64,000 nt of DNA from Liolophura sinensis (Eukaryota; Mollusca; Polyplacophora; Chitonida; Chitonidae). Under the pieces are notes generated by a model, which worked only from the letters and a program-made list of their open reading frames with translations, had not been told where the DNA came from and ran no database searches. Positions 4,809 to 55,800 of this stretch are shown here, in pieces; the stretch's first letter is position 1, and every line of letters starts with the position of its first letter. Made by a program: the position numbers and the translations under genes. The stretch is taken from assembly GCF_032854445.1 (NCBI RefSeq), contig NC_088307.1:27196547-27260546 (forward strand), read 5' to 3'.

Positions 4809-4889
<81 letters not shown>

Positions 4890-19800: not shown

Positions 19801-22800
19801 ATACAACTTTTGAAAATATTTTGGAAATTACATGGCACTAATAAGCCACGGTATAGTGGGTTTGAGAAGACAGACTAGAGTGATTTTTCGTATTTTACCA
19901 TCTCTTTATCTTATTTATCACAATTGAAGACACTCTTTTCACAAAATCTTCGTTTTAGTCACTGACTGATAAAGTCACAGGCTCGTCTTCAGCTCTCGCT
20001 AATTCGGCCGAGGGCTTTATCAGTCCGGGGTTTATCAGGTATCAAGCGAAGGGCGGCGACTAACGCTGGCTACTCTTTGTTTTTTTCCGGTAGTAAAAGT
20101 GAAATACTATACGATAAATGTCAGTCAGATAAACAAAGCAATAATAATATGATGCGGTATAGTATTACATAGTATACCTTGGCTTTCTAGGATTATGGGG
20201 CGGCGTCCTGACAATTGTACGCTACCCGACCCTGTCATCATTTCGAACGAGAGGGGTTGGTTGTAAGAACGTGCCTGGTAGGCCAGGAATTCGGTAGGGG
20301 CCATGATGTAGTTGGAGTCGAACGAAGAAGCCACTTCCCAAAATTGCGTGCTGGAATATATCATAGGGGGAAAATGGTCATCATTTGTTTCTGCAGATGA
20401 TACATTCAATTTAACGCGAGAAAATAGGTAAATTCAATTACATTAAATGTCTTCAGGGAAATTAAACGTCTTTGTTTACTCCAGGCAATTTTTGCATACA
20501 TGGTTGCGTAGTTTCGTTGATATATACACCTTAAACGTCACTGTACTCGTTGCTGCCTCGCTTGGCGCACAGCACTGAGAGGTTAGAGCACAGAAACATG
20601 ACTGGTTGGCCCGGTGTCAGTGTGATGTGACTGGGTGTGGTGTCATGTCTGCTGTCTTCGGCATGATACTTCAAATACGGCAGCATTTTGGCGGCACGGG
20701 CTCACACTTTCACAAGAAAACAGAGTGTATGTGCCCACCTGATGATATCTCGTCGTCATATGACTGAAAAACTGTGAAGCTGTACCGATACGAAGTAAAA
20801 TCCCAATCATACATCAGACATCGCTGCAGAAGGGAAAGTACCTAAACTGAATTACAACGGAGTCTTTAATGACGGTTAATGAGTCGCATGACTGTGATGC
20901 GGTGATTTGATTTGATCTCCAATATGTATGGAGTACCTCCACATTATAAATTCATAATTATGCAAGCATTTGACTGAGCAGAGAGCCGAATTATAGACGC
21001 GCAAGTTCCTCGCTAAAACACGACGTTCTTATTTCAGTCTATCAGAACACCTTATAGAAATGGGAATTAGCAAAACAAAGTTATTAAAAACAAAGAAATA
21101 AATTTGTAAATTGAGCAATAAGATAACAAATACAATAAATAAAATTTATAAATAATTCAATTTGTAAATTGAGCAATAAGATAACAAATAAAATAATACA
21201 GATAAGTTAGAGGTACGAAACCCTAGACGGTCGACTTGTGTGGCATGTGACAGCTACTGTGATTCAACACCTGGGCGTTTGCTGCTCTGTAAGTAGTGTC
21301 CTTCCGTCTGTCAGTCAAGCAGTCGGGTCAAATTTGTGACAGCCACTTATCTTGTAACACATGACGTAAGCCCAGGATGTAAGATGACACGAAATCTTGC
21401 ACGGAATTTTCACAGCTGATGCCAATTTGTGTCTTTTTTTTTCTTAATAACTCAGACTGAAATCATTTCCAGGACTCACCTTTCCGTGAAGACGAAGGCC
21501 TCCACAAAGCCACCAGCGGACGTACAGGGTGTTCCGTGTTCGTAGCAGAAGCATTTTTGACACCCATTAGGGTCCGAGTGTAAGAGATTGAAATATCCAG
21601 GTTTACACTGATCACATCTATCCCCCATTACGTTAGTCCTGCACGTGCATACCCCTGTGTCCTTATTACAGTCCGAGGAGACTACTCCGTCAGAGGTGCA
21701 ATCACATGCCCTGGTGAAAAAAAAGCCCGAACGAGATATGAAAAGTTTATTTTTTTATTTACTTATTTATTTATTTGGAGCTTACACCATATTCCAGATT
21801 TTTGACCGGAGTACTTATTTCATTTCATTCGTGTTTTACGCTGTACTCAAGAATATTTCACTTATACGATGGCGGCCAGCATTATGGTGGGTGAAAACCG
21901 GGCAGACCATCCGAAGGTTGCTGAAAAGCCTTCCCAGGAGGAGAGGAAGCCACCATGAGGTGGATTTTAACTCACAGCGTGTTCAAGTGAGAGACTTCTT
22001 GGTCTTTACGCTGCGCTAGCGCGCTAACTAACTGAGCCACGGAGGTCCTTTAGAGTACTTACAAAATACACACTTTTTAATTTCGCACTTTACAGAAAGA
22101 GAAAACATAATATAACAAGAATACCTTGATATAACACCGAATGGCCGGTTTTAGGGTTATATTCATGTAATCATTGAGACACAATGGCAAACAAAATCAT
22201 TTCTGGTTTAGTTGGCTAATGCAAGGAAGACGAAACTGAAGACAGAACCTCTTATTCCCAATTTATTAGCAGAGTGGTCGATGTAGGCTAAGTGATAAAT
22301 TCGGATAGTCTACAATTTGAAAACCACAATAAAACGAAAGTGAAACTACATGTATACACGGCAATTATCGATTTAGTTCAGACGCTTGACCCGATTGTGC
22401 TCAACCTTAGCTGTTGAAAATTTTGAATGTAGCGCCAATGAAACATTTTGTTAGAGCGCGGGAAGTAAACAGGGTAGAGGTACAGGACTATTACGGATTT
22501 AGAAATACCTGATGGATGTTGGTGGTAGATAGTGATCTGTCTCACCGTCGTCACTGTTGTGGTTTTACTCTCCGTGCTGTATTATTTTTAGATTGATTAA
22601 CATGTCAGCAAACGAAATAAAAATAATATGTCTATAACATGTTTAAAATTAGTGTATACTGATCAAACTCACAGACATCCCGTGACAGTGAAGTTATAGT
22701 AGCCTGGCTCGCACACATCACATTGCAGACCCGTTATGGTGTCTTTACACGTACATTGTCCTTCCTCGTCACATTGCTGTTTCTGCGACCCCAGAGAACT

Positions 22801-25800
22801 ACAGTTGCACGGCAGACAGCCACTGCCCTCAGCAAAGCCGTAGTGGTTCACCTTGCAGACGTTACAGAGCGTACCGGCCACAACGTCGTCTCGGGTTATC
22901 TCCCCGTACCGAGCTACATTGGTATGACAAGGACACTGTCCCGTTCTGATGTCACAGACGCCGTTCTGTGATCCCGTCTGGTCACAGTTGCATGCTGGGG
23001 GTAGAGCAATGGATAGATGTGATTAAACAGTACTTTGGGGATTAGCAGGTGGGGTTCCTGGTCGTTTTGGAGGATTAACAGATCATAAGCTGAGGGGAGA
23101 TAAAAGCCTTGTTCTCTGTTCAGTCCGTGCTTTTATCTTTAATCTAGATGGCTTCCTGTAGTTTCTCAGTGTATATAAAAACAGTAAAGAAACCGCTAAT
23201 GTGTTACAAATTGGTGTAACATGCTTACCCGTGTGTTTTAATGGCGCTAAGTGTACATGTACTGTGGTCTATGTCTTATAGAGAGTCTCCTATTCAGCTG
23301 TCTGTAAAATCAGTCATACCCTCTACCCAAATTGCCTTTAGTCAGTGACACATAAAAACACAAACTCTACGCATAGATATGCTTGGAGTTCACATTATTG
23401 CAAGAAAATGAAGTCCAATCGGACTACAATGTTAAAGTCCATAAGCTGGGTTTTGACGGCAAGAACCCATTTCTTGGAGTGAAGTCATAATTATTGAATG
23501 AAATAGACTACAGAACACCATTAGCATACTGTAGTATAGCGCTGATAACGAAGTCATAATACCTCCATATGGCAACATAAAACGTAATTGTGACGTCATA
23601 ACACTTCCATATGGCAACACATAAAACGTAATTATGACAACATAACACATCCACGTGGCAACATAAAACGTAATTATCACATCATAACACCTGCATATTG
23701 TTACGGTATTGAAAACGGCAACAGAAAACAGACTCAGTGACTCAATATTACAATGTAAACAATGCTTTATATATAAAATGAGACGTACAGTTTTACAGAC
23801 AGTTCAACAACAACAACATAAAAAAACATACACATCAGTATTACCGGTCTTTACAAGTTTCCAGTTCACCTTTGCATCCCAAGGAATGTATTCCAGGAAA
23901 TCCAATGTAAAGACCATGGGATAAACACACAATTCACAAATTGTCCTAGACAGGTACTTCGCCAGGTTAGCGAACACGAACACAGTACACAGGTCTGGAA
24001 CAGTCAAGCCTTTGAATGACGTCACACCCGCAGAGCACAACACAGGGTAAATACAGGCATGGAGGTATAATCCACTTCAGATCAGTCACAGCTCCCGCAG
24101 AAGCTCACAAACGAGCCGTTCAGAGACGTAGAGTAATGTCACCTTGTGGCAGAACGAACGTCCTTTGCAAAACTGAAAACTTCAGTTTAGAGTCCTTGAC
24201 GACCTTGTCGGTCAGGTGAGGTCAGCGTGTTAAACAAATTACACAGTCCACACTGTATAATCATAATCAAGATCCGAACACCAATAAACGTGACTTCCGC
24301 AGAAATTCACATAAACCAGACATCAGTACTACTGTGGTACACAAACGGTGCCGGCATAAAAAAAAACTGTCCTCCCAAATGAAACTGGCATCCCCAGCTC
24401 ATATCAAAATAATGGACTCGATACGAGAGCGTCTCACACTCTCCTGGCTCCCAGTGGATGCAGCAAAAATACCTCCACTCTGCACAGAAAACACGGCTTA
24501 TATACGGTCCAGGTGGATTCAACTATTCTTAGACACAGAATTAACAGCCAATGAACATCCAGTTAAATAAACAGAGCATTGAACAAGGTGCTTTCGGCCA
24601 GGTCCGCGCTGTACATATATAACAGGGCCTGTTATGCTTATAACATATAACACAAAGGTCCGCAGACTAACATTACATGAAGACGTTAAATAGTCATACA
24701 TAACACCCCCACCCTTCAGGGAAAGAAAGTTTTGCATAAAACTTTCTTTAACATATTCATAATTATGAATAATAATAACGTTTACCACAGTCTTTAAAAA
24801 CAAAGCTGCAGAAAACCAACTAGACACGTGACAAACAATCAGCAATCACATTATCTTTCCCTTTTATGTGTCTAATCTCTAGATTAAATTCTTGCAAAAG
24901 CAAACTCCACCGTAACAATCTTCGGTTTTTACCTTTTAGTTTGTGCAAGAAGGTTAAGGGATTGTGATCTGTATACACAACAATGGGGTAACTTGACGAA
25001 GTCACATATACTTCAAAATGCTGTAACGCTAGAATCAAGGACAGACACTCCTTTTCTATTGTCGAATAATTTCTCTGGCACTTGTCAAATTTTCGAGAAA
25101 AAAAAACATACAGGGTGATCAACGTGATCTGTTTCATTTTCTTGTAACAAAACTGCCCCAGCAGATATATCACTAGCATCAACAGCTAGCTTAAATGGTA
25201 AATTAAAATCAGGTGCTACAAGTATGGGGCCGCTGCTTAGCATGGCCTTTAATCTATCAAAAGATCTCTGACACTCAATGGACCACAAGAATTTAGCACC
25301 TTTCTTTAACAGCTGAGTTAATGGCTCACTAACAAATGAAAAGTTCCTACAGAACTTACGATAATAACCTGCCATGCCCAAAAAACGCTTTAACTCTCTC
25401 TTACAACTTGGCACTGGAAAACAAGAGATAGCAGCTCCACTAGGATGTACAACATTGAGATCAGTGCCATCTCTGTCTACATATGGCTTTAACATGTTAA
25501 TGTGACAAAGTTGTCTAGATTTGCGCCGATCAGGAGTGAAAATAATATAATTAAGATCACTTAGCCTCTTGTCTACTACATAAGGTCCAAAATAACGAGC
25601 TTCAAGTGGCTTACCACTAACTGGAAGTAAGGCCAATACCTTCTGACCAACTCCGAATCTGCGTCTTACTGTCTCTTTGTCATACTTAGTTTTCATACTC
25701 TTCTGAGAAGCTGTAAGATTCTCTCTGGCTAACTCACATACTCTGTTGAGCTTAGTACGAAAACTTGACACATACTGTAATAAGTTAACATTGTCACTAT

Positions 25801-34800: not shown

Positions 34801-37800
34801 ACTTTTCATACATTTCATGCTGTTATGCCATACACATGTATTCATTCCTGAAATTTCCTTAATAAACACGCAACATCACTTTACTAAATAAAATTGATTT
34901 TGATACAGACAAAAACACTTCTGTTGTATGAACACAAACGCATTTCCGTGTTGAATGAACCAACGCAAGTTGCTGCCTTTGACTTTAACATAAGTGTTTT
35001 CTTGTGTGTCAGTAACTCGTAATACAACTCTGATTTAAAACCGAACATGGAAATAATAAAAAGTTTTATTAAATATTATAATTATTGTTACAAAATCATG
35101 ACATTGCATTCATTAGCACAATAAATATTATGTAAGATAGAATTGTATACAAACGTCTGTCTGTCTAAAGACATTATGTTCAAAAATTGCTCAATAAAAT
35201 AAGTTAAAAATGTCTTTGAAATATATGTTATTACACATGCAATAAGCACTGGCCACCCTTTTTCCTGATTTCGGTTCACATAAAACTTTGCACGCGTTTC
35301 TTTTTTCAGCATTTATCTTCACAGATTTCACAGAGGCAGATTAAACTTTTTATCCAGTAATTTTGTGATACGATATAACAACAAAGAAATAAGTTGGATA
35401 CCCCACACATTATAAAAGTAATAAGAAGTTTTGATTGGTCATTGCACCTTTCATTGATAGGCTTGTCCAGTGAAAAATTAAAAAAAAAATGCACGCCGAA
35501 TTACTTTAACCTGGCAAATTTGCCGCCGGGCACAAAAGGCTAATTAAACAAAGGCAAAACTGCTATATCAGTTCAATTTATAGAAAGAAACTGTGTAAAT
35601 GCTCTGTCAGACTGAAGCTAGAGGAATTCATGCAGTACTTTTGCATAAAAGGCTGCATCTTTTTGAATTAATGTTTATGTAAAGGTTTACTCATGAGCGC
35701 TAAAAGTTTACCAGTGTTAATCTTTACTGTTCATTGCAAAAGTAAACGTTTACTTGCGAAGCTTTATTGCACAGCATGCAGCATGGAGCCCGGCTGTTCG
35801 TCTTCATTTAAAGTTATATCAGTTAAGTTTCTCAAAGACACCGAAATCAGAATCTGATTCAACATCTTAACTTTTTATATACATTTCAGATCTCATGTAA
35901 CAAAATTAATCCTATGGCTATGTAGAGCAGCTAGGTAATATCCGTACATCAACAACACATTTGTGTCCTCCGATTGATGTACCTACTCGTCTTCCTAGGA
36001 CGTATCGAATTTCGTAAGTCAAATTAACACGAGGTATAATTATGTTCCACATTGACATCACGACAACTGAGATCAATGCAGATTTAGCATCCATATGTAC
36101 CGTCACACGAACAAATCCAAATTGGAACATAAATCAAGTCTTTAGAAACGTCGCAGACATTGTTTATCGTCCAAGGACCATGAATGATTACTGGCAAGAC
36201 CAGAAAATGTCCGAATTGCTGATAAAATGGGTATAAACCATACAAGTCAGTTGTGATAGAAATGTGGTAAATTCTAAGAATCAAGTTCGAGCCAAAGGGT
36301 TTTGATAAATGAGTGGCTTTAAATGCTAAAATTACGGAACGAACATCAAACGTGATAATTTCTTGTTGTTTTCATTTCTAGTGTTAAAAGTGCCATGAAA
36401 TGGACACCACTGATTACGAGCACTAAACATTATACTATCACAACTTAAAAGTTTGTTTTCCCATTTAAATCCGTCACACTAAGGATCCATTGATTTCGTC
36501 GAACTCCCCAAACCCAGCATAGTTCAGATTTGGGTTATTGTTCGTGAACAGAACTCGGGGATCAAGTCCCTTGATATCTCGTGGCGGTTTGGCTTTTCTG
36601 ATCTGCAGAGGACTCTTCTGTATTCTCGAAACGTCAGCAGGATTATTGGGCGGCGTAACAATCTTAGCGGATTGTGGAAGGCCGTTCAACATTGTTGGTT
36701 GTTTCTCCGCTTGCAGGACTTTACCTTGGCTGTTGTGCACCCTGGAATGGATAGGGACGGAGCTAATTCTTGAGGTTTCGGCCCGTTGAGATGGATCTGA
36801 CTGTGAACATGCTGCTGAACCTGGTAAACTTGTGGACGGATTTTCCGTGGGACGACTTCTTAATGCCAGTGAATTTTGTGATAAACTTGGAGTAGAAACG
36901 CTCGCGTTCTGAGACAGGCTTGGCCCGGAACTACTTGCAGGCGCCGGTGAAATCCTGGTGTAACTCGGGGTAAGTTCACGACTGGCTGGAACGGTCGTAG
37001 CCCTGTTTGTAACTGGAGTGATCCCAGTGTCAGGCGACTTTAGAGATGTCACATTTGGGCTGCTTTGTGTTGAGGCAGCACTATAAGGTGTAACTGAGGC
37101 AGGACTATTTCTTGGAATTGTAACACTTGCAGTTGACTTTGACGGATTAGAACTATTTTTCAGTGATGCGTCACCGAGAGTTAGCCCTAGATTCTGTCCG
37201 GAATGTCTATCATTAGAAGAGGGATTTTGCTGCTGTATGGTTTTATTAGGACTATTTCCCTTTACCTCATCGCTAACACCACTAGACATTCCATCTGGAG
37301 GTAGACGACCATGAAGGGACAGGCCATTACTATTCCTTTCAAGGCTGAATTCAGTTCTCTGTTCTAGCGGACTGCTGCGAACAGGCTTGTGGTTACCTTT
37401 GGGAACAGAATTAGAATTCAAAGTTACCATAGACAGAGTTTCATTTTTCATGGTTATAGTAGGAGTAGACAGATTCGAAGATTTGGAATCATAGCCGCTC
37501 CCACCATTGCCGTCACTTCTAAGCTGAAGGTTTAGCGAGTGAACTGACATTGTTGACATGTCATCTTCCTCTCCTTTCATCGAGTGTTTTTCGTCAGAAA
37601 ACTGCTTATAAGCGTGTCTAGACGACACGCCATCTTGGAGTCGCTCTTGGTTACCTTCGTCCGCTTTCATACGTCGCACCGCAAGACACCTGCGAAACAG
37701 AATCACGGCGACGATGATACAAAGCACGAAGAGAACAAAGAGGAAGACGCCAATAGCGATGTAGACGAAGAGCATGGAGGAGTTGTCGTCATTCGGATCG

Positions 37801-40800
37801 GCTGTCGTGGCAGTCGTGTTGTCCTGTTGGGTGGTCGTCGGGGCCGCTGCTGTTGTTGTAGCCTGTGGTGAGGTTTCTGGCTTTGAGGTCGTAGCCTTAG
37901 GGCAACCAGAAGCTGGACACACTGCAAAGGTCAAAAGAAAAGCGGCATTAGTGACACCCTGATTCCGTGACCGATGCAGTGAATCAGCCCTGTGCAAAGC
38001 AGAGAAAACTTATCGATTGGGCGTCATTTCTGAGTTATTACAACAGGTAAGCTGCGACTCCAATCTTACTTGCCCTCGCCCCTTTAAGGAACATTGTCGC
38101 TCTCCTTTGTCAGTTAACATTGTTAATTTTTCACAAATCATTCTCTGAGCTTCATTTTGCAAAAGACGAACCCGACAAACTAGACTATTTCAAAACCATA
38201 TCTTCCGTCAAGAGGCAGATCCAAATACCCACTAAACAAAATTTTTTCCGTGTGTCCGTTTTCCCCTCAAAGACCACATTTACAAATAACTTTTACAGCC
38301 TTTGGCATGATGTGTGTATCACTTTTAATAATTTCACCCACTTCATCCACAAACAGGTGAACGTATAACCATCAAAGTGGTCACATCCATCTAGTCTTCA
38401 GTGTTGAACCGTCTCCTACAGGTGCGAGGTAAGAGTATACGCTTCGAAACATTCGTATACCAGCCGTCAACCATTAAGGATCTTCCAGGTCAATAATTGC
38501 GAGGCCAATTCCCAAAACGACGTATAACACAAACCACCAAAGAGCTAAGAAAGGAATCATGCAGAAAGAAGCAGCCATCAGTTTTCCATAATTTTGACTG
38601 CATCTGTTGAAGACCGATGTTTTTGCAGTTCTCTGGAATGTTACCAATTAACCGTCGTCTTTTCAAAATATAGTTGCAGGAATCCAGTGTGAGTGATAAC
38701 AGAGATTGGGGCCTTTTCTTGTCAGAACATTCTCGATATCGACATCAAAGGTATGGGTTGATTCATCAATTAACTGGAATTGCTATCTATAATGATACTC
38801 TTCGTCCAGTGAGAAAAATTCTACATTATGTTTACCAATAGCTTTGAATGATCAAAAACTACTATTAACATCACTGTATGTCTTTTCCTACGTCTGTTTA
38901 GGGGACGTGCACGTATTTCTTTAATTGCATTTAGTTGAACGATGAGAACAAAACCCTGCTTAAGGTAATCTGACGAGAGAGGAAATATTTCACCATATAC
39001 GTATGATCATTTGCCAGTTACCACACTGTCGTCGCTGCCCTGGCTTTGCTCTCCATGCGGCGGTCTTTTACATTGTATGCAACGATATACCAGGAGATGT
39101 GTGAGTTGCGACGGTTTAAGCATTGCATGAGTTACAACATAACGTACAATGGTAAGAGGTCTGATTTCACCAGCTACATGCGGCCATGTGCAATCACACT
39201 ATCGTCATTACTGTAGCACTTTGCTCTTCGTGCTAAAGTCTTTTATACTGCATATTACAGCGCCTAGATATTACGTCTTTGGTTCTTTGATGAAAATGTT
39301 CTGGAAGCACAAGCCCTGCATGGTCAAGACGGTTTTTGCAGAAATCGCATAGTGATTGTCATTCTTCGTCTAACGTGGTGTTAGTGTGGCCATTAACAAC
39401 AAGTGGTTCCCAAAGGAAACACTCAGTTTAGTTTAGTTTAAACTCCTGTATAAACTAGGATTCTGCTGATGGATTAAACATCCACTAGGCCTGGTACCTT
39501 TGCATTGTTTTAATGTGAATTATGTTAAATGTGATGACAACACAGCATTTTGAGAAAGTCTAGACCAGTGACGTTTAAAAGGTTGCATTTAACATCACTG
39601 CATTTTTTTTGTCTGATTCTGCTTAAGTCATGTTGCTGGGGGGGGGGGGGGGGGGGCTGTAAATTGCTACTAGTTATTCATTTACACCAGCAGTTATAAT
39701 AAAACCCTGACTGAGGTAAACTGACAAGAGCCCGCATTTCAGCGGTTGCCAGCTATAACACTGTCGTCGCTGCTCTGGTATTACTCTCTATGCTGTAGCC
39801 GTATTTCACCGGTTACGTGTCACCGTATGCCAGCTATAACACTGTCGTAGCTGCTCTGTTTTTGGGATTTTTGTTTTCTTTTTTTTTTTACCCTCTATGC
39901 TGTACGTCAAAATACGATATTTTAATATGGTTCTATAAGCAAACAGTATTAGGATTGCATGTACATACATGTAAGGCATTGTCTAAAGTAGATCAATTGC
40001 ACGTTGCTACGTCAACAACTGCTGTGACATAATGCCGATGCTGCCAAAATATTATGGTTAAGCTGTTTGATCACTGATCATCACTAACAGTATCACAGAC
40101 TGGATAATACTAAAGTAAGATAAATCAGAAAAAGATATCTGTACGTAATATCTAGGCCCTATAGATAAGATAAATAAGAAAAACACAACATTCACATACC
40201 AAATGTATGTGCAGAAATCTTGATCTTCAAGATTGCGCTTCATCAATATAAAACGTTATTTGGATTAGAGGACCTAAAAACAGACTTTTTTAGAAAGCTT
40301 AAATAAAAGGATATATTCAACATTAATTGGGTATTTGGAGAAAAGACCGTTAAATCCTGGATCTGAGCAAGAATATGTTTACTTATTTCTTTAAAATTTT
40401 TTCTGCGCTGAACGAAAGTCAGTCAAATGTTCGGATAAGGCAAGATTTAGGGATCTGAGGCCCGTTTTACAAAGAACACGTATGCAGCGCTGCGAGCTCG
40501 CAACTTCCATGACAACAACCACTGTAGGTATTACATATACGCCGTCATGATATCTACGGAAACGCAGCGGTGCGTGTTCTTTGTGATATGAGCCATATAT
40601 CTAGATCACGTATTGTATGACAAACATGACGTCACACAACCATCTCTACACCTATGTGTTTGGTTCGGAATATCACTTTGGTAAACATTACTGTATTTGA
40701 CCTACAATGTGAATGCGAAAAAGCTAATTTGATATTAAATCTGAAATCTATTTCCTGTAATATACTGCGAAATACTCACTTTAGAGCCAGAGAAAAGTTA

Positions 40801-43800
40801 GCATTACGCCAACATCGGCGCATTATTTATACGGCCCATAAAACCCACCTTACGCTAAATATTTGACTGCATTTTTCTTCATCAAAAATGAAAACAGAAT
40901 CTAAAAGACTAAGTAAGTGTATTTTTTGGTTTCCGTTTTTCACCTGGTGCTTACTTCATAAACGACCAATAGTCCTCTACGACTGTCCTAAAGGTGAGTT
41001 TGCGTCATCCGACGGTAGATCTTAATTCCAGTCAAAACATGATACTGACTGAGTGAAATCATGACGTTGCGTTGAAAATGTAGCATGTGAAAACTGAAAT
41101 TAAGACCGGAAACTTATTTTGCGTCCGATCATTTTTATACAAGAAGTGTAGTTTTCACTCACCTGTACAACCCGAATCGGTGAAGTTGTAATACCCAAGG
41201 TCACAGGTGTTGCAGGTCCTTCCCGCCACACCTGGTTTACAGGCACACTCTCCTCCAAACCCATTACACTGGGTGCCTAACTGGGTGCCCACCTGGTCAC
41301 AGCCACAGTCTAGAAATATAACAACAACAACGTTTAATCTGCCGCTCAGGTAAACAACCACCAATGAAAATGGCTCAGAGTTTTGTGTACAAGAAATTAA
41401 TGAAAACTTGCACGTGTAAATTACACAATTGGGAATTAAAGGAATAATTTTTTCCCTCTCCATAAACTTACAATTTGGCTTGAATAATGAATTATGTATG
41501 TCTAGTCATATTGTGAATGTTTTTCCACTAAGCCCTTTGTCGTTCTCTGCTATTCTAATTTGCTTATTTTATTTCAAACTCAGACCCCTGTGTATATTTC
41601 TTATGAATGTTAATTTGATAATACTGATCGATCTGATAGAAGTTTTCATGCTTTTTTTTCGGTTTTTATGCTGGTTATGTGTATCAAATATGGAACCCAG
41701 ATTCTTTCCATGCAGCCGAGGTGTATTTCAAGGAAAGAAAATACACTTTCGGAAGGATATGAAGGCTTGAAGATGATACGTTTGTTCCTAACACCTTTTG
41801 GTAAGAAGTTAATCAAATTTCTCAAAAACTTCGTAAGTCGCCGTATAGGAGGATAACAGCTGAGCAAGACAAGCGTCGACTTACCACTTGCTCCAAGGTT
41901 GATCTGTGTCCCCACAGAAAAGCTGAGAGCACGGCACGTTGGGGACTGCACGTGCTGACTCCTGGTGCTGAGCGCAGCAACGTTTGTCACGCATTCGTCG
42001 TACTGAAGCTTTGTCTCGTTATCTAAAAGAAAAAATTAAGGGGTGTATAAAATGTAAAAAAAAAACCCATTTATTTATTTATTTGATTGGAGTTTTATGC
42101 CGTACTCAAGAATATTTTACTGATACGACAGTGACCGATCTCGTGGTGGAAGGAAACCATTGTGCTTATAGTTTTTAAAATTATTTTGTTGGTGTGTATG
42201 TATCATATCAAGATTATTATTTTTTGTTACGTCTTTAGCCATTTCGATAGAGGGAGGACGTGTAGAGACTGGCAGAAACCACCACACATTGACAGGAACT
42301 TAATAAAACTTCTGACTAAAAGCCGCAACCAGATCAGTGGGAGCCGCATTTGAACTCGATACCTCTCCGTTGAAAGGAATTTGAGGAGGAGCTCAGACTA
42401 TCCGGACGTCAGATTAACAGTTTCACAGAAAACAAAATTATATCAAACATTTCTCATCTTTTCTTCATTTTTTTCTTGATGTTTTTGTTTCCCGGCCTTT
42501 ACCTGCAGACCGGTAGGAGGGATACTGCGATAAAGACGGCAATGGGACGATAGAATCTATGACGATATCGTCGTTCACTTCATTAAGGTCCTTCTGTCCT
42601 ACCACCAGGGTGAATCGATATTGACATCTCACGTCCAGAATGACTTCATCACCCACGGAACTGAGCCAGGCCACACCAGAACCTGAAATACACCGTGTTG
42701 GGGATAGATTAGGATTTGGTTTGATTAACTAATAACTTTTTTTTTATCTCTTCATCCCATTGTTTCTTTTCCCTATTTGCTTAGTTCATGAGACCGTTTT
42801 ATTACTTGATTAACTTGTTTGTTCCAAATCTCTGTGTTACAATTTAATAGTTCAGATTTAAGTCACAATTATGTTCAATCAACGTCACCAAGTTCATGTA
42901 TCAAGTTGCTAGGGGAGACAGCTTGCAACATGCTTTGAGATAGTTTTGGATGATGTTTCTTTTTATTTCATTATTTATTATCGACTTTTGAATCAGGTAT
43001 ACCTGGCTGAAAATCAACCGTCCATGTTTTGGTTTGGCCAATCCCTGTACACAGCGATGTGTTGATAGGCTCCGTCTGTTTGCTAAGATACTCCGACGTG
43101 TCCGTAATTCCGGAGATCCTGGAGGTGGTGACGGTCAAAGTTCCGGAGGGCCAGGGTAGTTGAGAGTTGTGTGAGTATCGGACAGCCAGTCGATACGGCC
43201 TGTTGAGAAAGGGCACAGAAACATCAAGCTATAAGACAGGTGAGTCCGGGTGTAGTTATGAGGAGTGGTAATCTGCGTGTCGGTTTGCATTGTGTGCAAT
43301 GCTGATTGATGATATTGGTTAATTTAAAGGAGAGATATTACTAGACCAGATATAATTATATGTATCGATTAAGTATCCCATGTGAAGTTTCTTTCATCGC
43401 TAATAATAAATAAAAAGTCTTACTCTACCATGTGACCTTTAACAAATGTTGGCCAACTATTTTGACTATACGATAAGCAATGGAGAAAAATTGAGGAGCA
43501 AAGCGTTTGTGACCATTCTGAACAAGTCTCTGAAGGAAAGAGGCTTCATGTGTGCTTCCAGAACAAGGCATGTGATTTGTAAATCTACGTCAACAAAAGG
43601 TGTCAAACATTATTAAAATGTCACTGTTTGTTGCCTTAAGCATTTTAGTGTGACACATGATTAGGATGGGCACTTTTGACGTCACAAAATTTTGTGATTG
43701 TTGAACATTCAAGTACGACATATATAGCTGATAAGCATGAACAAACAAAGTGGAAACGTGCGTCGCGCAGAATCGACATTCTGGTTGACTGTGCGGTTGG

Positions 43801-46800
43801 ACACCTAGGCTAGTAAACGAGAAATCATTTCCGAGTCTGTCTGGTTTGGTCAAATGATGCAGTACACGTACAGAATCAACCACCATGCCGAAGGTTAAGA
43901 GTTATCCGTTATAAACCTAGTAAATGTCGCAGTCGAAAAACAAAATCAACCAACATGCTGAGGGTTAAGAGTTATCCTTTATAAACCTAGTAAATCTCAC
44001 AGTCGAAAAACAAAATCAACCAACATGCCGAGGGTTAAGAGTTATCCGATAAAAAAACTAGTAAACATCGCAGTCGAGAAACAAAATCAACCACCATGCC
44101 TAGGGTTAAGAGTTATCCGTTATAAACCTAGTAAATGTTGCAGTCGAAAAACAAAATCAACCAACATGCTGAGGGTTAAGAGTTATCCGTTATAAACCTA
44201 GTAAATGTCGAAGTTGAGAAACAAAATAAACCACCATGCCTAGGGTTAAGAGTTTTTTCCGTTATAAACCTAATAAATCTCACCGTCGAAAAATAAAATC
44301 ATCCAACATGCCGAGGGTTAAGTGTTTTTCCGTTATAAACTTAATAAATCTCACCGTCGAAAAACAAAATCAACCTCCATGCCTAGAGTTAAGAGTTTTC
44401 CGTAATAAACCTAGTAAATGTCGCAGTCGAAAAACAAAATCAACCAACATGTTGAGGGTTAGAGTTTTTCCGTTATAAACCTAATAAATCTCACCGTCGA
44501 AAAACAAAATCAACCACCATGCCTAGAGTTAAGAGTTATCCGTTATAAACCTAGTAAATGTCGCAGTCGAGGAACAAAATCAACCATCATGCCTAGGGTT
44601 AAAAATTATCCATTATAAACCTAGTTAATGTCGCAGTCGAGAAACAAAATCAACCAACATGCCGAGTATTTAACAGATTTACTATTTTGCTCACCAAGTT
44701 TTTGTTTAAAATAATCTAGTTATAAAAGAAGGCACTCCAGTATATCTGTCCTTAGATTGTCTTCAATAACTTTGGGGATAACACTGGTGTGATGCCGAGG
44801 ATCCAAGGAAGTGTAATGTCATTTACTAAAAAGTGCTTCGTCGCCGGCGGTACGTGGGAAGGTCTGGTAGTAACCTGCGGATGGCCATGGATATCCGCTG
44901 CCCGGTTTCATCCCACTATAATGCTGGGCGCCGTCGTATAAGCAAAATTACTCCTTAGTAGGGCGTAAACACCAATCAAATAAGTAAATAAACACAAAAA
45001 ATTACAAAAAAGACAAAATGCGAAAACGTATGTAGATTAAGCTGTGATGACGTCATAAATCTCCATGTCCTCTGAATAACTTTTTGAGGATATTTTTCCA
45101 GACGCCCATGTTATAATATATGTAAATCAAAAATAGTTACCTAGTAATAGTTACCTAGTAATAGTTGCCATATGATAATTTCTATTTCATTTTAGCGATA
45201 AAGAGTTCAAACTCAAAACTCCATATTAAAATATTTAAAAGAACATTTTGAAATGTATTACAGAGCATTTTTCACGGCAGAGGTTTTAGCTGTGAAAAGA
45301 CTACTACATGAAATAGAGACATGCCATTTACAAAGTGTCGCCGAGTTTTTTGAACAGGCACTGCACTGGTTAAAGGAATTTACCATTGTATCTGAGGTTG
45401 TCTTATCTGGCCAGCCACGTCAGCGAATACCACTGACTGACTCGATTGACACCTGGCAAAACTTTGTCCGTCATGCGACAGAGTCGACTGCATGGCGCTG
45501 TCCAAAGTACAGGTACCGGAAACGGGATCCAGAGCGTTAACGTCTAAGAAAGGGAAATAAGTTCCAGGCTCTGGCTGAGAGCATTTGACTCCTTGCACTT
45601 TGTCACGGCAATTGCATTCTCCCGAAACCGCATCACACACTTCGGACATACTTCCGCCCCAATCGCAACCACATGCAGTGCATTCCTGAAAGTAAATTTA
45701 AGTTTTCCATTTATACAGATTTCTAAGAAGTTTTTCTTCTTCATGATGCATGTTCTTCCAATATATGAAGTCTATCATGTTTAGATTTGATTTATTTGAA
45801 TTACATGTGTATATAATGATACAAAAGAACATTTGACACCATATGATATGAAGGTGGTATTTTTAAACGGTTGTACAATGGTGGCCGTGTGTTCCGTGGA
45901 TTGACCATCACCTGCCAATAAATCCCCCTTAAGTAAAGCCGCAGCCAAGCAAACAGGAGCTGGAATCGAACTCAGCGCCTTACTTCTAAACATAGCGAGT
46001 AAACTATCCAACTGAATGAAAAAAATTACATCCAACTAGGCTAATTTCAAACCTTTTACAATAGTTTTGTAACGCATACATGACAGGGTACATTCCGAGT
46101 CACATTTAATGTTATATGTGCAGATAAGAATTGAGAAATAAAGTTATAATATTTTCATCAGGAAAATGTGAGACACATTCCTCGGAGTCTGTATCTGTGG
46201 ACCAGCCCTAGACTCCCACGTCGTTCTTTCTTATCTCTTTATAACTATTCTTCTATCTGTCTGCCTTTCCATCTGGTTGTCTAACTATCTCTGTGACTGT
46301 CGGTTTGTCTGTCTCTTCGTCTGTTCATCCGTTTGTCTGTATCAGACTACCTGTTTTTCTGTTTGTCCGATTGCTTGTTTATATGTTCATCTGTTTGATC
46401 ATTTATCTGTTTGTCTGTCTATATGTTTGCCTGATTGTTCATCTGTTTGTCTGAATGTCAATCTGTTTGTCTGTCTGTCCATCTGTTTGTCTGACTGTCC
46501 ACCTGTTTGTCTGATTGTTCAACTGTTTGTCTGACCGTTCATCTGTTTGTCTGTTTATTTGTTTCTCTGAGAATTTATCTGTTTGTCTGACTGTTCATCC
46601 GTTTGTCTGACTGTCCGTCAGTTTGTCTAACTGTCCATCATTTTTTCTGTCGGTTTGTCTAGTTATCTGTCTGATTGTGTATCCATCAGTTTATCTGATT
46701 GTTGATCTGTTTGTCTGACTGTCCATCTGTTTGTCTGACTATCCATCTTGTTTGTCTCTCTATCTTTTTGTCTGTCTATTTTCACCCTTAAAACTGACAA

Positions 46801-49800
46801 CCATCGTACAAATTAAGCATTCTTGACCATAGTTTAAAAATAATCAAACAAATAAATGAAAAGACAAATTTACCTGTGTCACATCGAGAGGAAAGCCATG
46901 ATATCCGGGCTTACACACACTACACAGGCGACCATCGGTGCTGGGTTTACATGGGCACTGACCTGTCTCTTTGTTACAAGTGGTACTCCCACCCACAGTG
47001 CCCCGGGTGTTACAGTTACATGCTGAAACAAACATGACAAGAAGATATAGTAAGGTGATAAAGTCTGCATTATCAAACATCCGCATTATCAAATATCTGC
47101 ATTATCAAATCTAAGCATAAGCAATGTTCTCATTATCAACTGTGCCAGCATAAAAAAATCCTCGTTATCAAATGTCCGTATATCAGATATTCACATCATC
47201 AAATGTCCTAATTATAACACATTGCATTATTGTATATCGTCGTTAGAAATCTCCACATTATCAAATATCCACACATTCATATGTCCTCATTATCAAATGT
47301 TACAATACAAAATTTTTTGTTATCAAATCGCATTATCAAAATCCCGTATTTAAACGAATGTCCGCATTATGAACTGTTCTATTATAAAATGTTCTCGTTA
47401 TCAAATGTCCGTATTATCAAATGTCTACATTATCAAATGTCTGCTTTATAACATGTTCCATGATAAAAAAAAGCCGCGTTGTGAGACGTTCGCATCATAT
47501 ATCCACATGCTCGGTGTACTCTTAATTATTATGTTAAGACACAAATTGGGGGGGCATAGTTTGTAATATTCTTGCTGCAAAATGATGTCACTTCCTAACA
47601 CAGTGACACAATATGAGGGCTTTAAAGATGAGTGAGTTGACCAGTTTACTGACATCGGGCATACTGCTTCTTGGAGCTAAGGAATGCATTTAATCCCGGA
47701 CTACTGAATTTATGCGTCAAAACAGACATTCGTATGCCGGCCGTCAATCAATAAGGACGTTCCAGGTCAATAATCGCAAGGCCAGTTCTAAAAGCGACGT
47801 ATATCACATACCAGCAAACAATTAGAATAGAAGCAGTCAACAGTTTTCAATGATGTTGGAAAGAACGCAAGGTATGTTTCAGGAGATTGCGTAAAATCAG
47901 TATTCAAATCATCTACCATGCTAGAACATCAGTTAACGGTCGATAACAAAATATGTATCTCAGTTACGCTTTGACTGCATCAATCCAACGTGGCGATCTA
48001 ATTCAACACGATGACTATACTGAACCTAGCCCCGGGTTAAGCAACATACGACACCTAGTCCGGGGTTAAGCAAAATACGACACCTAGTCCCGGGTTAAGC
48101 AAAATACGACACCTAGTCCGGGGTTAAGCAAAATACGACACCTAGTCCCGGGTTAAGCAAAATACGACACCTAGTCCCGGGTTAAGCAAAATACGACACC
48201 TAGTCCCGGGTTAAGCAAAATACGACATCTAGTCCCGGGTTAAGCAAAATACGACACCTAGCAACGGGTTAAGCAAAATACGACACCTAGTCCCGGGTTA
48301 AGCAAAATACGACACCTAGTCCCGGGTTAAACAAAATACGACACGTAGTCCCGGGTTAAGCAAAATACGACACCTAGTCCCGGGTTAAGCGGAAAACGAC
48401 CCATAAGCCCGGGTTAAGCGGAATACGACCCATAAGCCCGGGTTAAGTGGAACACGACCCCTACCTCCGGGTTAAGCGGAATATGGCCAAAAGTCCCGGT
48501 TTAAGCGGAATACCACCCCTAGACCCGAGTTAAGCGGAATACGACCGAAAGCCCCAGTTTAAGCGGAACCTAAGCACATGTAAGTATTAATCTGCTACAG
48601 ACATTAAGAAAATTGATCAGCTGTGTTATCATACCGCATCTTTCCCAACGAATTGTGAAAAGAATGACGTAACTTATTGTGCATCCTTCTGCCAGACTAC
48701 AACACTGCTTACTATGGAGTTGTGATACATTCAAATGCCCACAAGATTTTGCACTTCTTACGTTTGCACTCTCCAGGCTGGTCTCCGACTAACAGTCCAT
48801 AAAAGCCGTCCACACACACATCGCATCGACGTCCGGTGATCTGTGGTTTGCAGGGACACTGTCCGATGGGCTTGTCTCCATCTGGAGTCTGGCTGCATCC
48901 CACCGATCCTTGAGTCACACCCAACGGTTCACAGTCGCACACTTACAACAGAAACAAATTAACAAGTTTATGATTGCTCTAATTATATAGGACTCGGCCA
49001 GTATGTTATGACTAAAATGGCCTGTTTTATTCATCTTACAGATAATGAATTATAAATGCGGGTTTCTTGTGGGTCTATCAAACTGCACGAATACATTTAT
49101 GGATGTTATGAATTTATACGTTTTATGGGGACAACTGTTTTTATGGAAAAGGTAACTAGAGAATTTTTGCTGTGTATTATTTAAAAATATCATTTTTCTG
49201 GGAGCCTGTCGGCCACAAGATGTTCTACACAGCACCTCAAAACTGTTAAGTACGACGTTAAACCTCAAGCACTCACTCAGTCCCTCACTCGCTCACTCAA
49301 TCTGACAGCGGAATGAAGTGATGGTTGTCTTTTAACAACAGTATGAATTTGCCGTCGTCGTGTATGCACTGACTGATTGATTGGTTGATTGAATGATTGG
49401 TTGATTGATTGGTTGATAGATTAATTGATTGGTGCTTAACGCCCATGTAGATAATTTTTTACTAAAACGAGGGGGGTCAGGCTTACGAGTGGAGGAAACT
49501 GGTTTGCCCGAAGTAAACCACTGACCTTCGCTATGTGCCCGACAATGACCCAGTCGAAACAGTCAGAGCTGGACTCCAACACGCGACCTCATTGGTTAAA
49601 AGTCTGATAGCTGCAAAGTGCCATCCTTGAGCCAGCGAGACATTGATTGTTAGTACATGTGGATATAACATTTAAGTCTCAGTGGGTTTCAACTTTCCTA
49701 ATATAAAGTTTACATAACAGGTGCGACACAGATCTGTGGCAAAATAAATAAAAGAGCATCAATTCAATTTTTGTGCAATTTTCTATACCCAGTACATACA

Positions 49801-52800
49801 TGTGTATATAACCAAAATCAAACAAATAGAGTATGATATTGTGTATTATTTGAACAAGATAAGACAATAAAATGCTTTGGGTTCATTTGGTAGTCATAAA
49901 GTAGGATCACACCCAGGGCCATTCGTTTCTAAAGCGTTTTCGTCATCAAAATAAAAACAAAAATAAAGCCAGTACATCTTGTTATAAACCACATGCCGAT
50001 TTTTTCTATAGATTAAAGCGACAATTTAGTCTCCAATAATAAAATAACCCCCAGTTCGAGAGCTTTGCTTCCCATGTCATGAGGTTAATGAAAAATCATT
50101 GCGAAAACACGTTTAATAGAGCAAGGTTTGTATGTTATCATATAGACTGATGATCACGTGTCAGTTCTGTACAAGTATCATCTCGAATGTTTACGTTAAG
50201 AAGCGGGATTTTGCATTTAAATGAACTGTATCGCATCTACTGGTCATAAGAACCATATTTAACCTCGCCAAACTCACGGGTGCAGGTGTTGAGATCATTT
50301 AGTGGCAAGGAGGTGTTATGGTAGTATCCGTCAATACATTCCTGACAATGAAACCCCTTGGTATGGTGAAAACAGTTGTCACACACTCCCCGCATATACA
50401 CCGGATCGTAGGTACAGCTCTGCGCATGCTCATTGCACTCGCATTCTGAAAAGAGAAGACCGAACTATGAGTAGAGTAATGTGGATTTTACAGCTTTCAC
50501 TAGAAATCTCGCAATATCTCGTGATAGTTGGATTTTGTTTATATAGAATATACTAGTAGAGTGCCTACTTCTATGGAATATTCAACAAATTTAGTATTTG
50601 TTTATTGCTTTTGGCACGTGAGCAAGATGATCTGAACGCAGGTCAAGTGGCTGTATGCCAATCAGAATCCACTCTCCAATTGAAATCTTGCTTTACTGTT
50701 GTTGCATTTCGAACTTAGCGGAACGTTAATGCATGCAGATTGTCCACGGGATCCCAGAGGTAACTGAAGGCTGCATGTGATTTTGAGAGACTATAATATT
50801 TCAAACACACCAGCTTACATGGCAGAGATAAAATCACTTACCATGGCAAAAAATTTAACATTTCCTAACCCTGCCCCCCCCCCCCCAAGTCTCCATATAG
50901 TTGACATTTTTCCTATCCAATTTGCCCCCGTCTCCAACCCTGTGCCTTGCCCTGTTTTAGACTTACTTTGACACTCATTAGCCTCGCCGAGGTAGCTTCC
51001 CCTTTTCCAGGGCCGTTCGTTATACATAGGCAGACACCGCTCACAGTCTTTGCCTTCAGTGTTATGCGAACAGTTACAAACAGTGAAGCCATTGACCAGT
51101 GAACACGATGATGCATGTAGGTTACAGCTACACCTACAGAAACAAAACATAACAAAAAAAATCATATCAACAGCCGAGAATGTGAAAGTCCTCGTCTAAA
51201 AATGTGTTTTTCCGTCTATACATGTAGTTTTGGTTTTAACTCACCCATGAATGTCCGCATGAAGGCTGAATAGTTTCGAACTTTACACGCTGTGTTTGCT
51301 TCTCTGATCTTCGGACAGCGGTTCTTAGGTACGAATTATCCTGGCATATATACAGTATGTTGTAACCAGCCCAGTCTCAAGCTGAGAATTGAATATGGTG
51401 GTTATACCCTGGGTTTGGAACATGGATATGCAATGCTTACATCCTGGCCTAAGAAACAGGGTGTAAAATGGTGGTTACATTCTGGGTTTGGAACACGGAT
51501 ATGCAATGTTTACATCCTGACCTAAAAAGCAGGGTGTAAAATGGTGGTTACATTCTGGGTTTGGAACACGGATATGCAATGTTTACATCCTGACCTAAAA
51601 AGCAGGGTGTAAAATGGTGGTTACATTCTGGGTTTGGAACACGGATATGTAATGCTAATATCCTGACCTTGGAATGAAGGTGTATAATAATAATTACATT
51701 CAGAGCTTAGTAAATGCACCAGGGTGTAAAAAGCTAGTTATATTCGGACCTTGTAACTCGGGTGTAAAATGCTACTTCCATTCAACGTTTAGGGTGTGAA
51801 GGGAAAACGCTGGTTGTATTCTGAGTATAGGACGAGGAGGAAATATGCTGGTTACATTTGGAGGTTAGGGCGATCACGGAAAGTGCTGGCTTCACTCAGA
51901 GAGTAGGACGAAGAGGAAATATGCTGGTTACATTTGGAGGTTAGGGCGATCACGGAAAGTGCTGGCTTCACTCAGAGAGTAGGACGAAGGGAAAACACTG
52001 GTTACATTACAAATACATGAATCAACTTCTTTTCATTCAGTGAGCTCACTGAATAAAAAAATCACTGAATAAAAAGAAATTGTGATTCAAATATTTGCTA
52101 TGTTATCCAGCTCAGCTTCAAAGTGTCATTGGAAGAAGTTCCATCTGACGGCGTGTGTTTTAAAAATGAGCATTGATTCACATTGTATATCTCAGGTATT
52201 CTATGGTCTAGTGTATTTCAGGTTAGGTTGCGAATTTTACAACTCTGCATTGTTTGACCTTGTGTATTTCGGGTTAATTTGTGGGTTTTACAACTCAGCA
52301 TCGTTTGGCCTTGTGCATTCAGGTTATTTTGTGGGTTTTATAACTCTGCATTGTTTGCCCTCGTGAATCTCAGGTTATTTTGTGGGCTTTAATCATCGTG
52401 TTTTAAGGTCTGTTTCGCTCGTCATTTTCGAACTGTATCTAATATCGCTTAACCTGGGGCTAGGGGCCGTAAAGGTAGCCATGCTAATTACATCAGCATG
52501 ATGCCTTTATGAACAGTTGCAATCAAAGCGCGACTGAGATACTTGTTTAATTGTTATTTGACCTGGAACTCATTCACGGACTACGAATTTGAACTTTGAT
52601 ATCGAATTCATGCCTGGAATATCCACTGTCTGCCCAGCATCATTGAAAACTGATGATCGCTTCTCTCATGTGTGTTACCGGCTTTATTTCTTATTTGTAT
52701 AATTTCTTACATTACTTTGTCTTTGGGAGCTAGTGTTAAACGTTGTTTTGGAAATGGATCTTGCGATTATCGACTTGGAACACCCTTTACGGACTACGAA

Positions 52801-55800
52801 TGGTATATGAATGTCGGGCATGACGCTTATATTTAAACCTCTACATTGTTTGCCCTCGTGAATCTCACGTAAGGTTGTTTACAACTCAGCATCGTTTGGC
52901 CTTGTGGATTTCAGGTTATTTTGTGGGCTTTAAAGGTCTGCATTGTATGACCTTGTTAATGTCAGGTTATTTTGTGTGTTTAACAGCTCTGCATTGTTTG
53001 ACCTTGTGAATGTCAGGTTATTTTGTGGGTTCTAAAGCTCTGCATTGTATGACCTTGTGAATCTCAGGTTATTTTGTGGGTTTTAAAGCTCTGCATTGTA
53101 TGACCTTGTGAATGTCAGGTTATTTTGTGGGTTCTAAAGCTCTGCATTGTTTGACCTCGTGTATTTCAGGTTATTTTGTGGGCTTTAAAGGTCTGCATTG
53201 TATGACCTTGTTAATGTCAGGTTATTTTGTGTGTTTAACAGCTCTGCATTGTTTGACCTTGTGAATGTCAGGTTATTTTGTGGGTTCTAAAGCTCTGCAT
53301 TGTTTGACCTCGTGAATCTCAGGTTGTTTTGTGGGTTTTACAGCTTTGCATTGTTTGACCTCGTGAATCTCAGGTTGTTTTGTGGCTTTTCAAGCTCTGC
53401 ATTGTTTGACCTCGTGAATTTCAGGTTGTTTTGTTGGGTTTTAAAGCTCTGCATTGTTTGACCTCGTGAATTTCAGGTTGTTTTGTGGGTTTGACAGCTC
53501 TGCATTGTTTGACCTCGTGAATCTCATGTGGTTTCGTGGGTTTTCAAGCTCTGCATTGTTTAACCTCGTGAGTTTGAGGTTGTTTTGTGGGTTCTAAAGC
53601 TCTGCATTGTTGGATCTCGTGGATTTCAGGTTGTCTTGTGGGTTTTATAGCTCTGCATTGTTTGACTTTGTGAATGTCAGGTTATTTTGTGGGTTTAACA
53701 GCTCTGCATTGCTTGACCTCGTGAATTTCAGGTTGTTTTGTTGGGTTCTAAAGCTCTGCATAGTTTGACCTCGTGAATGTCAGGTGGTTTTGTGGGTTTG
53801 ACAGCTTTGCATTGTTTGACCTCGTGAATTTCAGGTTATTTTGTGGGTTTTACAGCTTTGCATTGTTTGATCCTGTAAATGTCAGGTTATTTTGTGGGTT
53901 CTAAAGCTCTGCATTGTTTGACCCTGTAAATGTCAGGTTATTTTGTGGGTTCTAAAGCTCTGCATTGTTTGACCTCGTGAATGTCAGGTGGTTTTGTGGG
54001 TTTTAAAGCTCTGCATTGTTTGACCTCGTGAATTTCAGGTTGTTTTGTGGGTTTGACAGCTTTGCATTGTTTGACCTCGTGAATTTCAGGTTATTTTGTG
54101 GGTTTTACAGCTTTGCATTGTTTGACCCTGTAAATGTCAGGTTATTTTGTTTGTTCTAAAGCTCTGCATTGTTTGACCTCGTGAATGTCAGGTGGTTTTG
54201 TGGGTTTTCAAGCTCTGCATTGTTTGACCTCGTGAATTTCAGGTTAGATTGTGGGTTTTAAAGCTCTTTGTATTTCAGGTTAGGACCCACATCTGCTATA
54301 AAACACGTTCCACTTACAGGAAGTCACGCGGCACAATGGTAACACAGTTATACTTACTTTCCACTAATGTCAATGTTGGAAATACCGTAAAATCCTCCCT
54401 GGGCAGGCGGTATGAGGAGAGTGATACGTATACCAGTGAAGGAGAGGAAAGTGTGGAAGTTTGGATCATTCTCGAGCGCATTGAATAGATTCTGATAGTC
54501 CGACAGCGTTGGGCCTAAAAACATCAGGTGTCTGTCATCAAATTTCACAATTCCCCCAGTGTAGGGCTCTGCAGTAGTGTAGTCCCCTGTACAGATTACA
54601 GCCGTGGGGTTTGTCGTTGTCAAATCCCCTTTGCTTCGCGCCACGCCGCTGTATTTGGTACAATCCTGACTGTAGTACTGTAAGACCGTCCAACTGGCGC
54701 CGTGGTCGATCGACTTCTCGATGATCATTTCTCTCGGACGTCCCGAAAAGAACAGCAACGCTATTGTGCCACTGAGTTCGTATAACTTGTCGAAGGATAA
54801 TTGGATGACTACTTTCAATTCATTTCGGCTGGAGGCTGAGATCGAGGCCCAATATGTTTCCATGCTATCATCAACGAGGAAATCCTTCGGGTGGCTTTTA
54901 TCCGGGTTATTCCGATCACACGTGTCGAATTCAAGACAGCCAAACTGCCATGTCTAACGTAAAAGAAGAACAAACTTGTTAAAAGGTACGCATAGTGTGC
55001 ATGAAATATGCGTCAATATTGATAAGTTAAGTCTCATGCGGATTCAGTTCAAGTGTCTCGCGTGAGCATCAAATTCTAGAGAAAACCAGCGGTTTCTAGG
55101 GGCATGACAGTCCGATATGCAATGGTTTTGAGTCCAGTGAGCGATGTTCACATCATCTTTCACTGTGGACATAGAACATTTTATACTAGGCTTATTATAC
55201 AAGAATATTGTACGCAATTACAACCTTGAATAGGCCTACGTAGTATTTATTTATCTATTTGATTGGGCTTTTTTCACGTCGTACACAAGAATTCTTGACT
55301 TGTCCCACTGACGATCAGTGTTATGGGTGGTGCAAATCCGAATGACGGGCCGCAGGATCATGACGTGATCTCAGACTTCAGTCAAAATTTCAAATCACAT
55401 CAACTTTATTAGTTTTCACATTGTTCAACAACGTAAATTCTGCATAAGTTATTGTACAGCAAATTTCAGCTAAAACAACGGAAAGGATCAAGTTAATGAC
55501 TGAAATGTTGACTTAGGCCTAAGACCGGATCTTAACCCCGGGACCTGAGGTAGGCTACACTACCATCCGAAGAGGTACTCACGAACTTTCCCACTAGTGG
55601 TGTACAATTGGACTCAACATATTGACGGAAGACAAGAAAACCAGGCGGTAAAGTTTTCAACCATACCTCTGGCAGCTGCGCTGCTCGAACGAAAGTTACC
55701 CCACTGCGCAACTACCGTAGTTATGGCCATGAGATCGCGTGGGAAAGCACTTTTCAATCGTGTATGCAGTACTAACATTCATACGTGTACACAGTATATT

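Follow-up and report, generated by a model that had tools for sequence, protein, structure and literature searches.

The 64,000-nucleotide stretch of Liolophura sinensis NC_088307.1 analysed here (the window, in whose positions all coordinates are given) carries on its minus strand a gene, predicted from the DNA, whose first 12 exons (U1-U12, Table 1) join into one uninterrupted frame of 1301 residues ending in TGA, with GT-AG borders at all 11 introns. The encoded protein runs from a signal peptide through an LN domain, five LE repeats, an LF-type insert, a further LE (LE6) and a threonine-rich stalk to a membrane helix and an inner part of 406 residues. A first-pass annotation of this DNA had proposed an uninterrupted type I membrane frame of 1295 residues; the frame held, at a length of 1301 residues. 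Within the first 918 residues, Pfam confirmed the LN domain (PF00055, 6.6e-34) and placed EGF_laminin on six stretches after it (3.1e-42). The LF-type insert lies between LE5, which has six cysteines, and LE6; this region matches the LE5-LF-LE6 segment of laminin beta-2 at E 1.5e-24, chiefly through its LE repeats and the last part of LF. The LF profile PF21199 matched the insert weakly (E 0.014; 15.3 bits against a cut-off of 27), and a whole-genome search with it gave no match. Neither FN3 nor LG families were reported by Pfam for the U1-U12 frame, and the frame includes no coiled coil because its last exon, U12 (the membrane exon), closes it before a second series of exons downstream (D1-D14).

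The membrane exon encodes a stalk of 49 residues, 13 of them threonine, a helix of the sequence MLFVYIAIGVFLFVLFVLCIIVAVILF (residues 869-895, mean hydropathy 3.22), the residues RRCLAVRR immediately after it, and a cytoplasmic part with 17.5% serine and 8.9% proline that ends in GSLV, an end which we take to fit the class I PDZ-ligand pattern. The stalk, the 27-residue helix, the basic residues and the roughly 400 cytoplasmic residues of the first-pass annotation were thus all recovered. Among the five highest separate 21-residue hydropathy windows of the protein, only the signal peptide and the helix exceed 2.0. From stop to stop, the frame of the membrane exon spans 511 codons; the longest chance frame was 204 codons in 100 simulated 60-kb intron sequences and 274 codons when 100 60-kb sequences were simulated from the exon's own composition. 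The hydropathy of the helix in the shuffling comparison (3.47) surpassed that of every one of 2000 shuffled versions of the protein encoded by the exon, which reached at most 2.23, and values of at least 3.0 occurred in 2 of the 50 six-frame open reading frames of at least 100 amino acids in the window, that of the membrane exon included. The length of the open frame, the helix and the acceptor at 37921 are beyond chance.

Splice sites were scored with a rough consensus matrix of our own rather than a trained model. The pair linking exon 11 (U11) to the membrane exon, 41163/37921, scores 14.2, the best among the pairs listed (some junctions had no listed pair), and the acceptor at 37921 ranks second among the 1130 AGs between 41122 and 22994. 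As first annotated, exon 11 is an LE repeat ending in phase 1, here found complete with eight cysteines, and the membrane exon is a phase 1 exon with a good acceptor. We consider the predicted splice from exon 11 to 37921 likely. Alternative first exons with a signal peptide were not found under strict settings, which would also miss the gene's own first exon. A relaxed scan yielded one weak candidate in the 3.2-kb intron before the membrane exon (ATG 39979, donor 1.6) and two before D1, both within a retroelement frame; the corresponding densities of 3.1 and 1.5 candidates per 10 kb fall inside the range of five controls (0.4-3.5). The scan thus revealed, beyond background, no separate 5' exon feeding the membrane exon, a possibility that the first-pass annotation had itself raised, and the membrane-exon frame contains no in-frame ATG upstream of the stalk.

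Downstream, D1-D14 encode an L4 domain flanked by further LE repeats and, after these, a probable coiled coil, the element by which laminin chains assemble into trimers. L4 was recognised on hand-joined pieces (PF00052, 1.5e-13; 51.2 bits against a cut-off of 22.4) and is absent from the seven PF00052 matches of the genome search. Over D8-D14 (about 575 residues, hand-joined), the heptad signal is below 0.02 in four of the seven pieces and absent in three, and no Pfam family passes its cut-off. By eye, no LG was seen in the 20 kb following D14, and of 45 PF02210 matches not one falls within C13 27.1-27.5 Mb (PF00054 was not searched); on these grounds an alpha chain was set aside. With L4 in the downstream exons, a full chain would therefore pair a putative LF of beta type with an L4 as found in gamma and alpha chains. 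Such a predicted chain, with LF and L4 and without LG, would be unusual: as described in PMC5338690, beta chains have LF and gamma chains L4, and alpha-3 and alpha-5 chains have L4 together with an extended insert that is weakly homologous to LF.

Table 1. Predicted exons and associated features of the window gene (window positions)
Feature	Position	Strand	Content and splice signals
U1	55824..56057	-	Start codon, signal peptide and N-terminal part of LN; weak donor, score 1.0
U2	54358..54953	-	Bulk of LN, netrin-G-like; PF00055; PDB netrin-G2 E 1.2e-29
U3	50967..51133	-	LE1
U4	50278..50445	-	LE2; donor score 1.3
U5	48762..48941	-	LE3; acceptor score -0.5, donor 2.3
U6	46874..47022	-	LE4
U7	45384..45685	-	LE5, truncated to six Cys (by eye), and first part of LF-type insert; PDB 5lf2 LE5-LF-LE6, laminin beta-2
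U8	43003..43199	-	LF-type insert
U9	42503..42682	-	LF-type insert; PF21199 E 0.014, below cut-off
U10	41885..42022	-	End of LF-type insert
U11 (exon 11)	41163..41309	-	LE6, complete 8-Cys LE; donor CAG/GTGAGT, score 8.2, phase 1
U12 (membrane exon)	36474..37921	-	Acceptor TTTGCAG/TG, phase 1; stop 36476-36474
U12, stalk	37921-37776	-	
U12, transmembrane helix	37775-37695	-	
U12, cytoplasmic tail	37694-36477	-	
First AATAAA past membrane-exon stop	35763..35768	-	About 700 nucleotides downstream; possible polyadenylation signal, hexamer match only
D1	22673..22994	-	Two LE; exon 11 may splice here instead of to U12; acceptor score 2.0, phase 1
D2	21480..21710	-	LE and first three Cys of L4-bearing LE
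D3-D5	16417..20415	-	L4; in-frame cores 20415-20178, 17789-17661, 16587-16417
D6-D7	14022..15555	-	LE repeats past L4; D6 LE irregular (by eye)
D8-D14	3703..13509	-	Probable coiled coil; stop near 3703

The first-pass annotation had taken the extracellular part for a laminin short arm. Its membrane-anchored, laminin-type short arm stands as a well supported gene model; the ectodomain is nevertheless not that of an ordinary laminin chain, because LN and LE1 are netrin-G-like. Compared with PDB sequences, LN plus LE1 scored 180 bits with netrin-G2 and 168 with netrin-G1 (identity up to 38%), followed by netrin-1 (117), laminin gamma-1 (97), netrin unc-6 (77), laminin alpha-5 and laminin beta-1 (63 each) and netrin-4 (49). 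When LE2-4 were added, netrin-1 (210 bits) overtook netrin-G2 (197, over a shorter matched stretch), and laminin beta-1 reached 168. In the reverse comparison, against seven LN rows assembled from the L. sinensis genome with their exons joined, netrin-G2 and netrin-G1 chose the window gene first (180 and 166 bits, against 110 and 133 for the genome's own netrin), netrin-1 chose the genome's own netrin and gamma-1 its own gamma, and beta-1 and netrin-4 likewise chose the own netrin and ranked the window row in fourth place. A genome search with netrin-G2 by single exons put the own netrin narrowly ahead (107.1 bits, against 105.8 for U2), because the sequence of the window gene is divided among several exons.

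Phylogenetic analysis pointed the same way. Our main tree of 11 rows, which leaves out usherin and a divergent paralogue of the window gene, C13b (described below), grouped the window LN with netrin-G1 and netrin-G2 with support 98/98, and rejected its placement with LAMB1 and netrin-4 (approximately unbiased test, p 0.026) or with gamma plus netrin (p 0.014). The netrin-G grouping was recovered with LN alone (10 rows, 99/98), without the alpha rows (91/93) and with usherin added (95/95); without the netrin-Gs, the window row had no supported place. With C13b, a very long branch, added to the tree together with usherin, support for the netrin-G grouping drops to 56/0. A netrin-G type for the window LN-LE1 is thus well supported, although the window row is long (branch length 2.0) and the kinship is therefore not beyond doubt. 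A plain laminin beta chain is ruled out by the low score of the LN with beta-1, by the rejected placement with LAMB1 and netrin-4, and by the L4 downstream.

Further evidence on the relationship between the two exon series comes from C13b (L003-L006, C13:27292000-27331999, plus strand), which is separated from the window gene by about 43 kb and faces it head to head. Read by eye, its order of LN, LE, LF, four LE and L4 matches that of the window gene; the start of its LF matches laminin beta-2 LE5-LF at 1.2e-20 and its L4 matches PF00052 at 1.8e-5, its LN is very divergent, one piece ahead of the L4 matched no Pfam family, and no PF02210 match lies nearby. The LE7 acceptor of C13b, CAG/CATGCGATTGT, mirrors that of D1, CAG/CATGCAACTGT, at the same position and phase, both exons starting with CATGC. 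Because C13b shares both the order and the LE7 acceptor, the splice from exon 11 to D1 is probably ancestral, and the order in C13b thus supports a single gene in which the membrane exon is an alternative last exon. From the frames, domains, phases and splice signals we infer, as on balance somewhat probable, a single gene on the minus strand, from 56057 to 3703, giving two products by choice of the last exon. Splicing of exon 11 to 22994 would yield a secreted chain composed of LN, five LE, LF, 4.5 LE, L4, LE and a probable coiled coil, with no LG. Splicing to 37921, with cleavage past 36474, would yield a type I membrane protein extending from the netrin-G-like LN to LE6 and continuing into the stalk, the helix and the 406-residue Ser/Pro-rich tail. 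Inclusion of U12 would thus tether the short arm, and its skipping would release a secreted hybrid chain.

Several observations weigh against this model. The D1 acceptor is weak, ranking 45th among the 1130 AGs; since open frames were the criterion for choosing the D cores, their openness tests nothing, and the D2-D3 junction is provisional. The synonymous codons of the membrane exon give no sign of coding, as 25% of 3000 intron stretches drawn at random reach an equal score, and the exon's GC content at third codon positions, 0.43 against 0.54 for U1-U11, is the lowest among all exons of the model. No relatives of the tail were found elsewhere in the genome (best weak matches E 0.41 and 2.5), and the tail matches no Pfam family above the cut-off; the best hit, TMEM154 (1.3e-4; 22.3 bits against 30.3), falls on the stalk, the helix and the first tail residues and was set aside as an effect of composition. 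Finally, the equivalent introns of C13b and of a gene on C8, with approximate bounds, hold no such exon, their longest stop-free runs being 86 and 100 codons; the membrane exon may therefore be a young or local gain.

Part of this evidence would also fit a split of the ancestral hybrid into two adjacent genes, an alternative that we regard as rather unlikely. U1-U12 would then form a complete gene for a membrane protein by themselves, and the D series would be either an LN-less chain with its own promoter, like laminin gamma-2, or a decaying remnant. The membrane-exon acceptor is far stronger than that of D1, 13.5 kb including a retroelement frame separate the stop from D1, the L4 of the D series is divergent (1.5e-13) and was missed among the genome-search matches, and the D6 LE is irregular. 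However, the only signal-peptide exons that the scan proposed for D1 lie inside the retroelement frame, and D1 has kept the ancestral phase. It is more doubtful still that the membrane exon is a separate small gene nested in a laminin intron, or a non-functional open frame, to which exon 11 never joins. Codon use and the lack of tail relatives in the genome speak for it, and since phase 1 is common in genes of extracellular modules, the phase match alone is weak evidence of joining; yet a nested gene would have at its disposal only the single weak first-exon candidate, at background density, and no ATG ahead of the stalk, and a non-functional frame is at odds with a length beyond chance. An assembly error that put an unrelated membrane exon at the locus is highly improbable: nothing specific suggests it apart from the repeat-rich region, the window contains no N, and the exon was found once in the genome, at this locus.

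The region C13:27.20-27.42 Mb contains three laminin-type genes in about 220 kb, namely the window gene (minus), C13b (plus) and a clear gamma-1 gene (L015-L018, minus; 373 bits to LAMC1). A canonical laminin beta chain, with beta-type LN, LF and no L4, was not recognised in the genome LN and LF searches; exon splitting may hide one. The gene on C8 (L019-L021, C8:16264000-16293999, minus) carries, by eye, an LF-type insert and LE of the post-L4 type, and visual inspection of the stretch revealed no LN; it may be an alpha-3/5-like chain because of a weak LG match (E 4.8e-4) downstream, at C8:16247158. Elsewhere in the genome, the best match of the window LE-LF region (9.3e-19) is a gene on C6 with LN and many LE (L007, C6:19312000-19321999, minus) and an LG match farther downstream (C6:19301306), which we take to be usherin-like. 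The retroelement frame between the membrane exon and D1 (25085-28663, minus) comprises gag/SCAN-like, integrase and RNase H parts in an unusual order and is apparently incomplete. Minisatellite-like arrays form long open frames inside laminin introns of the window (17620-19565, minus; 8905-9479, plus), and further short-repeat open frames occur in laminin introns at L003 4644-6239 and L004 3288-6020. Separately, C99 holds seven cox1 matches at a spacing of about 15.5 kb, representing head-to-tail mitochondrial genomes, besides the single-copy C632 of 15,209 bases. In the mitochondrial cox1, TGA is read through, AGA/AGG occupy serine sites and AAA encodes the conserved lysine of STNHKDIG, a code that excludes vertebrates, tunicates and echinoderms but not amphioxus. 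The gene order nad3-nad2-cox1-cox2-atp8-atp6, with the genes named from their translations, is typical of phoronids and of molluscs including chitons and many gastropods, and we take the genome as lophotrochozoan.

Among known systems, netrin-G1 and netrin-G2 (laminets) are nearest to the predicted membrane form in LN plus LE1 and group with it in the tree; both would be membrane-held. Netrin-Gs carry three LE and a glycosylphosphatidylinositol (GPI) anchor, whereas the window gene has five LE, LF, LE6, a helix and a 406-residue tail. Netrin-Gs are described in PMC4706652 as GPI-anchored and exclusive to vertebrates, where they serve synaptic adhesion, and in PMC4000137 as lacking invertebrate orthologues, though one ascidian Ntng gene is named there. 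LaNt alpha31, which the laminin gene LAMA3 produces as a short LN protein (review, PMC9788559), resembles the membrane form as a short LN-LE product with an alternative 3' end. It differs in arising by intron retention with a short unique end (PMC9788559), whereas the window gene would use a spliced terminal exon encoding a helix and a long tail; its exon anatomy fits an alternative last exon rather than intron retention. With laminin beta chains the window gene shares an LE5 without Cys7-8, a putative LF-type insert and LE6, but its LN is not beta-like and it has the L4 that beta chains lack. Its L4 in a split LE, LE, probable coiled coil and absence of a recognised LG recall gamma chains and the LN-less gamma-2, to which it adds the LF insert and the netrin-G-like LN upstream. 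Usherin (USH2A), a transmembrane LN protein according to PMC7317166, is likewise a single-pass membrane protein with LN, LE and a PDZ-binding end; it has ten LE, LG and 32 FN3 (PMC7317166), the latter two families not being reported for the window frame. The claim of the first-pass annotation that a membrane-anchored laminin would be a new arrangement thus needs narrowing: the combination looks new, but membrane-bound LN proteins (usherin, netrin-Gs) and the short LaNt alpha31 are known.

We read the locus most readily as a switch of the LaNt type, by which the gene would make either a hybrid laminin chain for secretion or a netrin-G-like protein that spans the membrane. The membrane form could present its LN on the cell surface for adhesion in trans, like netrin-G with its NGL ligands (PMC4000137); alternatively, it could join the laminin network, as proposed for LaNt and netrin-4, and its tail might link to scaffolds. 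Our literature searches turned up neither a transmembrane laminin isoform nor a netrin-G-type LN in a protostome, nor one gene choosing between basement membrane building and surface signal reception, although earlier mention is possible. More tentatively, and with real doubt, the window gene may be a lophotrochozoan link between laminins and netrin-G, with a netrin-G-type LN on an LF- and L4-bearing chain and a last-exon switch giving either a network chain or a transmembrane signalling receptor. In that case this LN type would be older than the vertebrates, and tethering at the membrane could be an old trait of the lineage for which vertebrates substituted the GPI anchor. The review PMC9788559 derives netrin-Gs from a laminin beta-gamma ancestor, and a non-vertebrate netrin-G-type LN on a chain with LF and L4 would make this idea testable. 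If the last-exon switch is real, a single gene decides whether its product contributes to basement membrane or acts as a signal receiver on the cell surface.

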